34,535 bases of DNA from an uncultured Rhodospirillales bacterium (GTDB taxonomy: Bacteria > Pseudomonadota > Alphaproteobacteria > Azospirillales > Azospirillaceae): contig CAIZDL010000218.1 in NCBI GenBank assembly GCA_903931735.1, forward strand, positions 1-34,535, in the 5' to 3' direction. The number at the start of each line of letters is the position of its first letter. The first letter of the stretch is position 1. The translations under genes and the position numbers were made by a program. The notes below the pieces were generated by a model. The model had not been told where the DNA came from and ran no database searches. It saw nothing but the letters and a program-made list of their open reading frames with translations. Positions 19,353 to 33,645 of this stretch are shown piece by piece.

Positions 19353-20561
19353 CTAGCCCACCGGCCGGCGGTTGAGAATCTTGGGCGCCGTGGGCGGGCC
19401 GAGCGGCTTGACCACCGACGGCTTGGCCGGCGCCGGAGGCGGCGCCTGCTTCTGCGCCGCGGCGGTTGACCGTTGCTGAGCCGACCCCAGCCGTTGACTG
19501 ATCGCGGAAGGCTGGCGCGGCGCCTGCTGGGGCTCATCGCCAAACAACCAACGCTTGGCGCTCTGAAGGCTGCTGTCGAGCGCTGCCGCCACCGGCGAGG
19601 CCAATTGCTGGCGCGCAGCCGACACGGTTGCCACCAACCGCTCACACTCGGCCTTATGATGCTCATGCAAACGCTGACGCTCGGCGCCATGATGCTCGAT
19701 CAGCCGAGAAACCTCGGCGCGCGACGCCTCCAACTGAGCGCGCAAGTCGCCAACCCGATTGCGCAGCTCATCAACCGTCGCATCGGCGGCAACCAAATTC
19801 CCCGCCGTCTGTTCCTGCTCCCGGGCCGCAACGGCGCGTTCTTGCAGCCGCTCCTGCTCAACACGGAGCAGGCTGGCCCGCAATTGCTCGTTCAGCCGGT
19901 CTTTTTCCGCGATCAGCCGGTCTTTTTCAGCCAAAGACGCCAACAACCCATCAACCACCGGCTGATGCACCGACTGAACGGGGGGAACGGGGGCCGAAAC
20001 GACCGGAGGCAAGCTTTCCGACACGGCCTTGACCACGGCCGGCTCTACCGGAGACTCGACGACCGCCACCGCCTCGCAAGCCGGACTCTCCGCCACCGCC
20101 TCAAGCACAGCCGCCGGGACCTCAGGCGCAGCCACAGACGCCGCTTCAAACACCGGCTCTAACGCGGGCACCGGCTCTAACGCGGGCACCGGCTCTAACG
20201 CGGGCACCGGCTCTAACGCGGGCACGGACTCCGGCGGGGCCACAGGAGCCACGGCCACAGCATCAAGCGCGGGCGGCACCTCAGCCACAGGCACGCAAGC
20301 CTCGGCCACAGGCGCCGGGGCGACAACCACAGGCGCAGGAACGTCGGCCACACCGGCCGGAGTCGGCTGCGCCGCCACCACCTCGACGACAGGCACAAGC
20401 ACAGGTGCCGCCACCGGAACAACCACGGGAACCGGCGGAATCCCTGGCTGATCCTCGTGACCGTGGCGACCATGAATCAAAGCCGGGACCGCTTCGCCCT
20501 TGGTTGCAAGGCGCGATTTACGCACCACCGACTCGGGACCCAGAGAAGGCCGCTTGCTCAT
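19353..20561 (-). CDS. Repeat-rich coiled-coil protein coupled to ParA-like ATPase
   Basis: I do not recognise the 402-aa protein as a known family. The first 28 residues are basic ([21 protein letters not shown]). Residues 40-200 are a low-complexity Pro/Ala/Val/Glu region, probably disordered, with four exact VPALEP repeats (113-136). Residues 205-322 form a strong coiled coil with [12 protein letters not shown] and many Leu/Glu/Arg heptads. A short ordered-looking KRWLFGDEP (336-344) is followed by a basic Pro/Ala/Gln tail. Its ATG overlaps the ParA-like stop codon (ATGA), so the two are translationally coupled. A basic N-terminus plus coiled coil beside an orphan ParA ATPase suggests a partner or adaptor that stimulates the ATPase and binds a cargo. 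That role is inference. Confidence 0.78.
20151..20222. repeat. Four perfect 18-bp tandem repeats
   Basis: The unit CACCGGCTCTAACGCGGG is repeated four times without a mismatch and encodes VPALEP on the minus strand. Perfect identity at synonymous positions indicates recent slippage or homogenisation. Because the unit is a multiple of three, copy number can change without breaking the frame. Confidence 0.92.
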
Positions 20562-21193
20562 TGCCTCGGCTCCCCTTTATTCATTCGCTTGCTGATGACC
20601 TGCCAAAGTTCGGAGATTTCCGCTGCGGCCTTCCCTTTCGGGTCGATTTCGCCCGCCGTCCGCCCGTCGATCATGGCGGTGGGGAAGTCGACGCGATCAT
20701 AAATCGTGGCAGCCACCCGGCCATGCTGGGCCAGGGCGGTCAAGGTCTGCTGGACCAGCCGCGCCTTGGGCTTGGCCGAATTGATCACAAAAAAGAACGG
20801 CTTGGCGCCAGCATGATCGATCAGATCGAGGGTCGCGCCAATCGATGCCAGATCAATCGGCGAAGGCCGGGTCGGCACCACCACCATATCGGCCAGATCA
20901 AGCACCGATGAAATCGTAGCCGTGATGGCGGGCGGCGTATCGATCACCACCAGCTTAAAGCCATCGGCTTCCAGATCGGCCAGCGTTGCTGCCAACTCCG
21001 CGATTGTCGTACTCGCCATCGCCGGCTGCTCGGCCTTGCGCAAATTCCACGCGCCGGCCAGGGACCCTTGCGGATCGACGTCGACCATCACCACCGGCCC
21101 GGCGCCCGCCTCCTGAGCGGCGACGGCGAGGTGGAGAGCAAGCGTTGTCTTGCCGACCCCGCCCTTTTGAGATGCCAGCACCAGTTTCCGCAT
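20558..21193 (-). CDS. Small ParA/MinD-type ATPase (orphan)
   Basis: This 211-aa deviant Walker ATPase has KGGVGKTT at residues 10-17, with the signature lysine at 10. The switch region is DVDPQGS (38-44) and the Walker B-like segment LVVIDTPP spans 81-88. It lacks an N-terminal helix-turn-helix, like the short chromosomal ParA homologues that position chemotaxis clusters, carboxysomes and other cargos on the nucleoid. No parB, parS-like repeat or replication gene is nearby, so plasmid partition is unlikely. The next gene, a coiled-coil protein, overlaps its stop codon by 4 bp and is the probable partner. A promoter is predicted about 30 bp upstream of the ATG. Confidence 0.9.
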   Translation of the reverse strand: MRKLVLASQKGGVGKTTLALHLAVAAQEAGAGPVVMVDVDPQGSLAGAWNLRKAEQPAMASTTIAELAATLADLEADGFKLVVIDTPPAITATISSVLDLADMVVVPTRPSPIDLASIGATLDLIDHAGAKPFFFVINSAKPKARLVQQTLTALAQHGRVAATIYDRVDFPTAMIDGRTAGEIDPKGKAAAEISELWQVISKRMNKGEPRQ

Positions 21194-21225
21194 GGTGTGT
21201 CTTCGCCTTTCGGGTGGCCCTAGGT

Positions 21226-21254
21226 AGAGTAGCGCGGCTGCGCGTCAGCCGCAA
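21226..21254 (-). promoter_or_regulatory. Candidate promoter of the ParA-like/coiled-coil pair
   Basis: On the minus strand TTGCGG (21254-21249) and TACTCT (21231-21226) are separated by 17 bp. The spacer contains a hairpin with arms GCGGCTG and CAGCCGC (21234-21252). It lies in the 130-bp gap after the methyltransferase gene, so the pair can be transcribed independently. Confidence 0.42.
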
Positions 21255-22915
21255 CCGGAACCTTAGCACCCACACCAGAATGCACCCCCGCGCAAAACGA
21301 CGCGGCCGACAGGAAAAGCACAATCAGGCCGAACAACAAGGGGACGCCGCCAGCACTCCCTTCAACGGCAAGCGTTTAAGTTCGCCCGGCTCCAACTTAT
21401 GGAGCCCGCCGCCATAGACGCGCCCGGCCGCAATCAACCCCGCCGCCCCCATACTATTCAGGCCGCGCCACAGCCGATCGATTAGCGCCGGGTCTGCCGC
21501 AAGGTCCGCTTTTGGATAGAGCAGCAGATAAACATTGGGCGCAATTGCCCGCGAATAATTGCGTAAAAAGCGAAACGGTGCTGCACCACGCCCCATATAA
21601 GTGCAGAGCAAGGGTGGCGGCGCCCGACGGTCTTGGGCATACCACGGCGTCCGGTGCCGGCAGAGATAGCGCTCCGAAACGGCCGGCACCCCGCTGTCAA
21701 GGTAACGCCCCAACGCCGGGTAACGCTCGGCAAGATCGGGCATCGGCAACCGGCAATCCAGCAAATAGAGGCGGTTATCGAGTTGCGGCAGCCCCTCGGC
21801 ATCGGCACGGATCTCCAACACCTCCGGCCCCAGGCCGCGCGGACCCGGCAAAATCGGCTGAAAGCACTCAAACGGCAGCCCAAGCTGGGCGATTTTGGCC
21901 TCGTTCAAAATAAAGAAGCGATTATCGCCGGTGGCCACGCCGCGCTTGATCTCAAACAAATCGCCCAACGTCGCCCCAGACTCCGACTCTGTCCCCGACT
22001 CGGCCTCCGCCTCAGGCGAAAACGCCCCGCACCTCCATTTTGGCGCAAGACGCAACCGCTCGGCCGGAACGCGCTCGCTCAGGCGCGGTGCCGCAATCGA
22101 CCCGCCCGAAGTAAAGCGCACACAATGACCGGCAGGCGGCGGAGCGTGACGCCACCACAACACCGCCGACGTTACCAGGGCATCGCCAAATTGCACATCA
22201 ACAGGGTGAAACCGATGCAATCGCAAAATGGTCACCCGTTCCGCCAGATACCGGCGAAGGCCCGCACCATAATTAACGTCCATGAACTCCGCTGGCACCA
22301 ACCAAGCGGCGATCGCCCCCGGTGCAGCCCAGCCATGAGCCAGGAGCATGAAGTAGGCATAAAGCCCCGCCAGTCCAGAAAGGCGCACCCCCGCCACCCG
22401 CTCCCCCAACGCCTGAAGGCGCCGCTTATCGGCGGGCTCCAAATGGTGGTGACGAACATAAGGCGGGTTGCAAATGATGAGATTGGGTTGGACCGGAAGA
22501 TTGGGCTGGGTCGAAAAATTGGGCGGGCCGGGGCAAGGCACTTCGGCCCGGGTAAAATCACCAAGGGTCAGATCCAGCCGGCTCCCCCGCCACAACTCCC
22601 GCGCCGGCTCGCCATAGTGAGCGTCAATCTCGAACCCCGCCAGCCCGGCGACCTGACCTGCCGGCACCAACCCCAGCAACGCCGACAAAAAAGCGCCGGT
22701 GCCGAAGGCCGGATCGAGGAACCGAATCGTTTCACCCGCCGGCAACAATGCCAGCGCCCCCGCAACCACCTCCCGCGCTAAAGCCGGAGGCGTCGCGAAC
22801 TGGCCCCGCCGATTGCGATCGAAAAGCGGCCTTCCGGCATCGAGGCAGCCCTGCAAAGCAAGACGGCGCGCTTCACGAACGTCGGCGGGGACCGGGACCG
22901 TTGGAGCAGCCAAAA

Positions 22916-24448
<1,533 letters not shown>

Positions 24449-24879: not shown

Positions 24880-24988
24880 CAGCCCCGCCCCGGGACACAG
24901 GGGGTTACCACTGGCCAAATGCGACCAACCGTCGCATCCTCAACCCGTCGTCGAAATCCCGGCCCGGGGCCGTTCGAAAGGCAAGCGC

Positions 24989-26206
24989 GTGACCGATATC
25001 TCAACCCGGCTTTCAATCGGCTTTTCGTACGTCGGCCATACCTTCATGCATGTGCTGACCGCGCTTTACCTCACGGTGGTTTTGGCGCTGGTGCCGGCCT
25101 GGAACCTTGGCTACGACGAGTTGATCCGGGTCTGGACGCTGGGCTCGCTGATGATCGGCCTGGGGGCGCCGCTGGCCGGTTGGCTTGGCGACCGCTGGAG
25201 CTGCTCACGCATGATGGTGGTGTTCTTTTTGCTCACCGGCGGCGGCTCGATTGCGGCGGGCCTGGCCAGCGAACCTGTTTCCTTAATGGTGGCGCTGGCG
25301 GCGCTCGGGCTCGGCGGCTCGATCTATCATCCGGTCGGCATGTCGTGGCTGGTCAAAAATGCCTCGGATCAGGGCACGGCGCTTGGCTATCAGGGGGTAT
25401 TCGGCAGTATTGGCGTCGCATCGGCGGCACTGGTCGCGGGGACCCTCACGGATTTGTTCTCCTGGCGCTCGGCCTTCCTCATCCCTGGGGTGCTGTGCGT
25501 GACCACCGGGGTTGGGCTCGCGGCCTGCATCGCGCTGGGGCTGGTTTGCGACCGCAAGGCCGATGCCAAGCCTCTGCCAAAAACCAGTCGCAGCGACGCC
25601 GTACGGGCCTTCGTGGTGCTCTCGATGACCATGACTGCGGGCGGGCTGATGTGGAATTCGGTAACAATCTCAATGCCAAAATGGTTCAACGACGGGCTGG
25701 GGCCGGTGATTGGGGGCAGCACGGTCAGCACTGGCGGCCTGGTCACCCTCATCTATTTGGCTGGCGCCCTGCCCCAGCTTTGGGGCGGTCGACTCGCGGA
25801 TCGGTTTCAAGCCCGCACTCTCTATTCATTCTGCCTGCTGGCCCAGGTGCCGCTGGCATTCCTGGCCTCGTTCACCCTAGGCGCGCCGATGCTCGCGCTG
25901 GCGTTAATGCTGGTCAGTTGCCAAAACCTCCAGATTCCCATCGAAAACCTGCTGCTCGCCCGCTTTACCCCCGGCAAATATCGCGGGTTGGCCTATGGCG
26001 CCAAATTCATCCTTACCTTTGGTGTTGGCGCGCTGGCGGTGCAACTGGCTGCGGCCTCATATCGCTGGACCGGAACCTTCGAGGGGCTCTACCTCACCGT
26101 AACCGGCCTTGCCGCCACCGCCTTCCTGGCCTCGCTGCTGCTCCCGGCCGAGCAACGCGCCCTCGCACCACAGCTCGTGTCGGAGCCCGCAGCGGCCTCC
26201 GATTGA
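24989..26206 (+). CDS. Major facilitator superfamily transporter
   Basis: This 405-aa inner-membrane protein has about 12 hydrophobic helices. The MFS loop motif between helices 2 and 3 is present as GWLGDRWSCSRM, and an equivalent GGRLADRF appears in the second half. The segment GGSIYHPVGMSWLV resembles the fosmidomycin-resistance (Fsr) branch, so it may be a drug or small-molecule exporter, but the substrate is unknown. A GTG start is preceded by AAAGGC. The long arginine-rich frame overlapping it on the same strand is a shadow. It lies between cutA and the rpmH cluster. Confidence 0.88.
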   Translation: MTDISTRLSIGFSYVGHTFMHVLTALYLTVVLALVPAWNLGYDELIRVWTLGSLMIGLGAPLAGWLGDRWSCSRMMVVFFLLTGGGSIAAGLASEPVSLMVALAALGLGGSIYHPVGMSWLVKNASDQGTALGYQGVFGSIGVASAALVAGTLTDLFSWRSAFLIPGVLCVTTGVGLAACIALGLVCDRKADAKPLPKTSRSDAVRAFVVLSMTMTAGGLMWNSVTISMPKWFNDGLGPVIGGSTVSTGGLVTLIYLAGALPQLWGGRLADRFQARTLYSFCLLAQVPLAFLASFTLGAPMLALALMLVSCQNLQIPIENLLLARFTPGKYRGLAYGAKFILTFGVGALAVQLAAASYRWTGTFEGLYLTVTGLAATAFLASLLLPAEQRALAPQLVSEPAAASD

Positions 26207-26225
26207 GGTTTATCGGGCAGCTCCA

Positions 26226-26254
26226 TTGACTCGGGCGGCCCGAGCCACTATAGA
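26226..26254 (+). promoter_or_regulatory. Sigma-70 promoter of the rpmH cluster
   Basis: TTGACT (26226-26231) and TATAGA (26249-26254) are separated by exactly 17 bp and lie about 50 bp before rpmH. The perfect palindrome CTCGGGC-G-GCCCGAG (26230-26244) overlaps the end of the -35 and fills the spacer, so a repressor could bind there. It might instead terminate the upstream MFS transcript. Confidence 0.65.
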
Positions 26255-32292: not shown

Positions 32293-33645
32293 ATGGCGCG
32301 GTCAACCTTTCCGATTATTGCGATCGGCGCGTCGGCCGGCGGGATCGAAGCGCTTAGCGCGCTCTTTAAACGTCTGCCGCCCCATCTCAACGCCGCCATC
32401 GTGATTATCACCCATTTGGCGCCCAACCGGGACAGTATGCTTCCAGAAATCATTCGCCGCCTGACCAAGATCCCGGTCAACGTCGCGTGCCAAGACCAAA
32501 TGATCGCTCCTGGACATATCTCGATACTCCCACCCGACACAATTCTTACCGTCCGCGACGGTAAGCTTGAGTTAACGCCACGTGGAAACGAATATAACCC
32601 CATCGATATTTTTCTGACCTCGCTTGCCAAAGACATGGGGGGCCGAGGCATTGCGGTTATTCTCTCCGGAACCGGCAACGATGGCAGCGTCGGAACCAGG
32701 GCAGTGCGCGAGGCCGGCGGCCTGACCTTGGCGCAAACCGGCGATTCGGCCCATACGTTGCACCATCCCGACATGCCCGAGGCAGCCATTGCAACCGGCT
32801 TCGTTGATTGCATCCTGCCAATCGACGAGCTTGCCGACCACCTGACCCGTTACGTTGAAGTCTTTCCCGACCGCCCTCTCGCCCTCAGCTCGGGCCTGCG
32901 GGGGGCCAGCACTGCGGAAATCGAGGCTGCGAAAGCAACTCTTTACGCCGCGCTCCAGTTCCGGGTTGGTCATGATTTCAGCCGTTACAAGGACAAAACA
33001 TTTTTGCGTCGGGTTGAGCGGCGAATGCAAGTGCTCCAAATGACATCGCTGGACAACTATTTGGAGTTGATCAAACAAGAACCGGCGGAAGTGTCCGCAC
33101 TCTTTCGCGATTTACTCATTGGTGTGACAGACTTCTTTCGCGACGAAGAAACCTTCGCGGGCCTCACTCGGCTGGTAATCCCCCAACTGCTTGCCGCAAA
33201 AGGGGCCGCCGATTGCGTGCGGGTGTGGGTCCCTGGGTGTGCAACCGGTGAGGAAGCCTATTCCATCGCCATGTTGCTCTGCGCGGCGACATCGGGGGGG
33301 CAAACCCGCCCGCGCATCCAGATCTTTGCCACCGACGTCGATGAACGGGCGCTCGCCATCGCCCGCGCCGGCCGTTACCCCGAACGCTTACTCGACTCGG
33401 TGCCGCCCGAGCAGGCGCGCCGGTTTTTTGTCCGGGAAGGGGCCAATTTCGTGGTCTCCAAGGAGATCCGCGAGCTGTGCCTATTTTCACTTCACAGCCT
33501 GATCCGGGACCCGCCATTTTCGCAAATCGACCTGATTTCATGCCGCAACTTATTGATTTATATGAATACAGAGTTGCAAAATCAGGTTATCCCGATCTTC
33601 CATTATGCCTTACGGCAGGGCGGCTATCTTTTTCTCGGCGCGTAG
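32293..33645 (+). CDS. CheB methylesterase-CheR methyltransferase fusion, ended by in-frame amber codon
   Basis: The 450-aa frame carries a CheB methylesterase domain (residues 1-190) and a CheR methyltransferase domain (about 205-450). The CheB catalytic serine is in IGASAGG (about residue 14), the histidine in ITHLAPNRDSM and the aspartate in GTGNDGSVG. The CheR part has GVTDFFRD, the SAM site VWVPGCATGEEAYSIAM and LISCRNLLIYM. Fusions of this kind normally continue into a coiled coil and PAS domains. Here TAG replaces what should be a serine codon in the LGxSENV segment, and the same frame stays open for 286 codons afterwards. The truncated product could still hold both domains but loses its sensory part. 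GAGAGGG precedes the ATG. Confidence 0.85.
   Translation: MARSTFPIIAIGASAGGIEALSALFKRLPPHLNAAIVIITHLAPNRDSMLPEIIRRLTKIPVNVACQDQMIAPGHISILPPDTILTVRDGKLELTPRGNEYNPIDIFLTSLAKDMGGRGIAVILSGTGNDGSVGTRAVREAGGLTLAQTGDSAHTLHHPDMPEAAIATGFVDCILPIDELADHLTRYVEVFPDRPLALSSGLRGASTAEIEAAKATLYAALQFRVGHDFSRYKDKTFLRRVERRMQVLQMTSLDNYLELIKQEPAEVSALFRDLLIGVTDFFRDEETFAGLTRLVIPQLLAAKGAADCVRVWVPGCATGEEAYSIAMLLCAATSGGQTRPRIQIFATDVDERALAIARAGRYPERLLDSVPPEQARRFFVREGANFVVSKEIRELCLFSLHSLIRDPPFSQIDLISCRNLLIYMNTELQNQVIPIFHYALRQGGYLFLGA

Follow-up and report, generated by a model that had tools for sequence, protein, structure and literature searches.

A chromosomal ParA-type ATPase and its coiled-coil partner: a candidate positioning pair related to plasmid partition modules

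Within the 34,535-nucleotide stretch of DNA analysed here (the window), a contig from an uncultured Rhodospirillales bacterium, two overlapping genes encode a small ParA-type ATPase and a coiled-coil protein. On balance, we consider that this chromosomal pair probably descends from a plasmid-type ParA/RHH module and was repurposed to position a cargo other than DNA. This reading is favored because the partner keeps the N-terminal motif of its RHH-containing relatives, does not have their DNA-binding domain and fits the plan of known partner proteins. In those proteins, a basic N-terminal peptide contacts the ParA-type ATPase and the remainder binds cargo (PMC10241942, PMC12204374, PMC7993993). 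The basic N-terminal peptide of PomX is sufficient for activation (PMC7993993), that of McdB is both necessary and sufficient for binding (PMC12204374), and a modular design has been proposed for partners of ParA/MinD ATPases, in which such a peptide may be joined to any interaction domain (PMC7993993). The features of the pair are as follows.

20558..21193 (-), small ParA/MinD-type ATPase, 211 aa, with the deviant Walker A motif QKGGVGKTT and without an HTH
20558..20561 (-), ATGA stop/start overlap of 4 bp between the ParA and partner genes; translational coupling
21194..21323 (-), gap upstream of parA, lacking the repeats that precede plasmid relatives
19353..20561 (-), partner protein of 402 aa, a putative ATPase activator and cargo adaptor
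20478..20561 (-), partner residues 1–28, basic N-terminal tip and putative ParA-contact peptide, near-identical in five species
20484..20501 (-), partner residues 21–26, K-G-E-A-V-P, the sole element in common with the RHH and SPOR partners of related ParAs
19965..20477 (-), partner residues 29–199, Pro/Ala/Val-rich disordered linker of variable length
20151..20225 (no strand), 18-bp tandem repeat of 4.2 copies (VPALEP repeats) inside the partner gene
19608..19964 (-), partner residues 200–318, long coiled-coil helix showing a heptad pattern, from AlphaFold2, the heptad test and a conserved block
19542..19592 (-), partner residues 324–340, short helix (AlphaFold2) and start of the conserved RWLFG
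19356..19415 (-), partner residues 383–402, conserved basic tail, candidate cargo- or DNA-contact site

The ATPase carries both the KGGxxK[ST] motif and the CbiA/AAA_31 signature of ParA/MinD proteins with a deviant Walker A motif (Pfam E-values of 1.7e-16 for CbiA and 2.1e-15 for AAA_31), and its size of ~200 aa, Walker A motif at residue 10 and lack of an N-terminal HTH place it among the small (type Ib-like) ParAs. Its best NCBIfam model is NF041546 (ParA family partition ATPase), at 157.5 bits against a curated cut-off of 180, and McdA is only a remote match among PDB sequences. Scanning the contigs of the genome with this ParA returned distant ParAs only. A genome-wide search for ParB_N gave a single match, on contig C261 and 210 bp from a different ParA, and no ParB lies beside the ParA of the window. 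Because the only ParB_N match adjoins another ParA, we conclude that the ATPase in the window is not the chromosomal one. The preliminary description of this locus had proposed an ATPase without an HTH that overlaps a 402-aa protein by 4 bp, with no parB in the window; the open reading frames, the ATGA at 20558–20561 and the location of the ParB_N match bear this out.

The domain plan given there for the partner (basic N-terminus, disordered Pro/Ala/Val region, coiled coil and basic tail) likewise agrees with its charge, composition, predicted structure and heptad pattern. Residues 1–30 have a net charge of +4, residues 31–199 consist of 22% P, 21% A and 26% V, and the last 61 residues have a net charge of +7. 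AlphaFold2 leaves residues 1–199 unstructured and predicts one helix from 200 to 318, with pLDDT >90 for most of its length, followed by the short helix at 324–340 and an unstructured tail. The best 35-residue stretch (253–287) exceeded all 1000 shuffles in a local heptad test, whereas hydrophobic periodicity over the whole helix was not above shuffles. The basic tail may be a DNA-binding element in its own right. The partner has no Pfam match above cut-off, no relative among NCBIfam, PHROG, PDB-sequence or plasmid entries and none in a Foldseek search with its AlphaFold2 model, in keeping with the earlier view that it lies outside described families. Profile searching of the class beyond this genus yielded weak coiled-coil matches only; the one examined in full is HflK-like, and two more are as long as the SMC protein of the window.

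The relationship to partition modules emerges from the relatives of the ATPase. Using a threshold of E <= 1e-42, relatives occur in 53 of 385 genomes, a partial sample of the class, and the downstream gene was read in 69 loci. An ORF bearing KG.A lies directly downstream of ParA in 57 of these 69 loci, a count that is not independent, the KG.A pattern having been used in selecting partners; some of the remaining loci are cut by contig ends. Unlike that count, the C-terminal domain classes of the partners are independent of the selection pattern. Assigned by HMM, they comprise RHH (46 loci), SPOR (9), coiled coil (5, this genus) and other or none (7). Pfam alone finds RHH families in many partners and SPOR in 9, and all 9 members of the SPOR class combine a TM segment with the SPOR domain. 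One RHH partner was modeled with AlphaFold2, and its model aligned with ParG, CopG, Arc, PutA and MatP at weak Foldseek E-values. The preliminary description did not foresee that the usual partner of this ATPase family, on small plasmids as elsewhere, is a DNA-binding protein of the RHH type.

An alignment of 62 partners is near-invariant at K21, G22, A24 and P26 and at one proline of the linker, P132, which falls where the alignment is gapped. The element common to related partners is K-G-x-A-x-P, beyond which the C-termini differ. In motif models trained without the genus, the tip of the window partner has E = 0.12 among 14,741 ORFs, improving to 0.033 when plasmid partners are added, and it ranks directly behind the training members, its genus siblings (E of 0.005–0.02 in the first model) and one weak locus. 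A model built from plasmid partners alone was too narrow and did not find the tip. Taken as one pre-chosen protein, the motif match would arise about 1 in 100,000 times or less; this is a short motif, matched only modestly in the window. The genus partners either exceed E of 1 or have no match to the RHH model (5/5), whereas the value is <0.01 in 46 relatives, and HMM searches found neither RHH nor SPOR in these partners. The window partner has the N-terminal segment of a ParF/ParG-type system, in that K-G-x-A-x-P is common to its relatives and a ParA contact is predicted. This comparison supports the ATPase-contact-like N-terminus previously suggested for it. The open-access literature yielded no description of the K-G-x-A-x-P motif or of ParA/SPOR pairing.

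At the nine TM/SPOR loci (L182, L183, L197, L202, L204, L205, L209, L210 and L213), the partner is an FtsN-like protein with the same K-G-x-A N-terminal motif, and several genomes with such a locus also hold a separate ParA/RHH pair. Genome G413 has two close ParA paralogues (L177 and L179), one with an RHH partner and the other with a 178-aa partner that bears the same motif and no recognizable RHH; the latter is possibly another domain swap.

Relatives of the ATPase are also present in 97 plasmid records. ParAs ~56% identical to that of the window sit on plasmids of 10–60 kb, and several of these closest relatives are accompanied by an RHH partner of ~85 aa that starts GLVATKGxAAPV, and on some plasmids a replication gene (repA) adjoins the ParA/RHH pair. 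We compared repeated 8-mers 5' of parA with 200 shuffles, counting a locus as exceeding them when at most 7/200 reached the observed count. By this measure, upstream repeats exceed shuffles in 10 of 14 plasmid loci versus none of the five genus loci. The plasmid repeats are often GCGTGCTTT, are seen in this form upstream of parA in L252, L253, L255, L256 and L263 and are probable plasmid centromeres; GCGTGCTTT is absent from the window. The centromere-like repeats of ParF/ParG-type systems were thus not found in the genus over the region upstream of parA. Their absence is suggestive only, because many chromosomal RHH relatives also have no upstream repeats.

In a phylogenetic tree of ParAs, those of the genus form one clade (support 100/99), and a split supported at 95/92 sets 54 chromosomal ParAs, in which loci with SPOR partners fall among those with RHH partners, apart from a group made up of the genus, plasmid-type ParAs and three RHH loci. 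The tree is midpoint-rooted, several nodes are weak or open and the plasmid branches are long. For these reasons, a swap from plasmid to chromosome and from RHH to coiled coil is offered as the simplest reading of the tree only.

Each of the five sampled genomes of the genus has the pair, always with an identical 4-bp overlap; in one of them (G003) the partner gene is split across two contig ends. As had been anticipated for a dedicated pair, the genes were not found to be regularly separated. The ParA is 79–91% identical to those of four sister species, and the full-length partner is confined to the genus in searches of the class, by profile, and of plasmids. Residues 1–28 of the partner, the final part of the coil, RWLFG and the C-terminal 20 residues are conserved as blocks; linker and coil-repeat number differ among the species. 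In one species, the coiled-coil part of the partner gene contains a 153-bp (51-aa) unit repeated 3.4 times (L156:7235–7748), a recent in-frame expansion. Between sister species, ParA is under purifying selection (dN 0.06, dS 0.88), as are the N-terminus, coil and last 20 residues of the partner, with relaxation in the disordered region. In all five genomes bL31, UbiA, FdxA and CarD lie downstream of the pair. These and a phosphatase-like gene were considered as clues to the cargo and rejected, since they look like ordinary housekeeping genes, and no gene neighbor hinting at a cargo is conserved across families. Searches of the genus genomes for a second motif-bearing adaptor gave nothing above background, and those for a displaced RHH partner gave marginal matches only, one of them beside a different ParA.

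Among known systems, the plasmid ParA/RHH pair is the closest by descent and PomX the closest by layout. ParF/ParG of TP228 (the type example) and the Xanthomonas pAG1-type loci (the nearest found) have a small ParA without an HTH, as in the window, and the window shares with plasmid ParA/RHH systems a partner gene directly downstream and a putative N-terminal ATPase-contact segment. Unlike theirs, its partner has no RHH and is 402 aa long rather than ~85, and upstream repeats are missing. In the PomZ/PomX system of Myxococcus xanthus, the 404-aa PomX has an N-terminal peptide (1–22), an Ala/Pro-rich segment (27–182) and a coiled coil (222–401) (PMC7993993). The charged peptide, Ala/Pro-rich linker, C-terminal coiled coil and length of ~400 aa recur in the window partner, which differs in having a conserved basic tail after the coil; the likeness is one of layout only. 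McdA/McdB, which positions carboxysomes, likewise joins a ParA to a diverse partner, and the first ~20 residues of McdB contact the ATPase (PMC12204374); the window genes examined include no carboxysome genes. PpfA/TlpT and ParC/ParP, which act on chemotaxis clusters, resemble the window in having a chromosomal ParA without ParB or parS, but the window pair lies outside any chemotaxis operon and its partner has no receptor-type domain. The kinship to PpfA and McdA drawn in the preliminary description is therefore better replaced by a repurposed plasmid-type partition pair, because the usual partner in this family is an RHH protein whose N-terminal motif the window partner keeps.

In our model, a captured plasmid-type ParA/RHH partition module would be the starting point. 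The ParA probably dimerizes with ATP and binds the nucleoid non-specifically, and the partner probably touches this dimer via its K-G-x-A-x-P tip, which probably stimulates ATP hydrolysis and release as do the N-termini of ParG, PomX and McdB. The ancestral RHH DNA-binding domain would have been replaced by a disordered tether, a coiled coil able to self-associate and the conserved basic tail, and the C-terminal part would connect to some cargo that is not a parS-like DNA site. We infer ATPase stimulation, nucleoid ratcheting, a protein cargo and the direction of the domain swap. The earlier proposal of a cargo-positioning pair accordingly stands as regards a dedicated pair and, by comparison, a contact-like tip; positioning itself is something we infer.

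Four alternatives were weighed against this model. The pair might still segregate DNA, the coiled-coil protein having taken over from RHH, binding a centromere or the nucleoid through its basic tail and moving a chromosomal locus or an integrated element. The plasmid partition pairs among its relatives and a tail that is both charged (+7) and conserved over its last 20 residues are consistent with this, but the partner has no RHH, HTH or ParB domain, repeats upstream of parA are absent from all five genus loci and the genome has a separate parAB; we regard it as unlikely. Positioning of the division site in the manner of PomX, with the ParA and a coiled-coil scaffold acting on FtsZ placement, would suit the layout and size of the partner (402 versus 404 aa) and the nine relatives in which this ParA type is joined to an FtsN-like TM/SPOR protein. 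We think this rather unlikely, as the likeness to PomX is one of layout and may be convergence and no division gene was seen beside the pair.

A relic, or a ParI-like interference factor without its own cargo, could account for a genus-restricted partner with variable repeats beside a plasmid-type ATPase, but purifying selection on ParA and both partner ends, and a gene overlap kept across the genus, make this improbable. Positioning of chemotaxis clusters, of the PpfA or ParC type, appears very improbable: short chromosomal ParAs do this elsewhere and the window contains a CheB-CheR fusion at a distance of 11 kb, but that gene is not adjacent to the pair and the partner has neither a chemoreceptor nor a CheW-like domain by Pfam and NCBIfam.

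The family forms a natural series for testing partner modularity, in which related ATPases and a single recognizable N-terminal motif are combined with three or more C-terminal modules. It is a tentative but serious possibility that evolution has fixed one N-terminal tag to DNA-binding, SPOR (membrane/peptidoglycan-binding) and coiled-coil modules, and that in this genus the result is a machine positioning an undescribed cytoplasmic assembly. The family would allow one to ask how a DNA-partition machine becomes a positioner of other cargo, provides a short candidate tag and points to an unstudied group in which this ParA type is joined to an FtsN-like SPOR protein.

Three further genes in the window may be mentioned. 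A 436-aa ORF at 24919–26229 (+) has no Pfam or NCBIfam match. Directly upstream of the pair, at 21324–22991 (-), is an Eco57I-type methylase-like gene with no relative in the loci examined in sister species. The CheB-CheR fusion protein is encoded at 32293–33645 (+), near the contig end.
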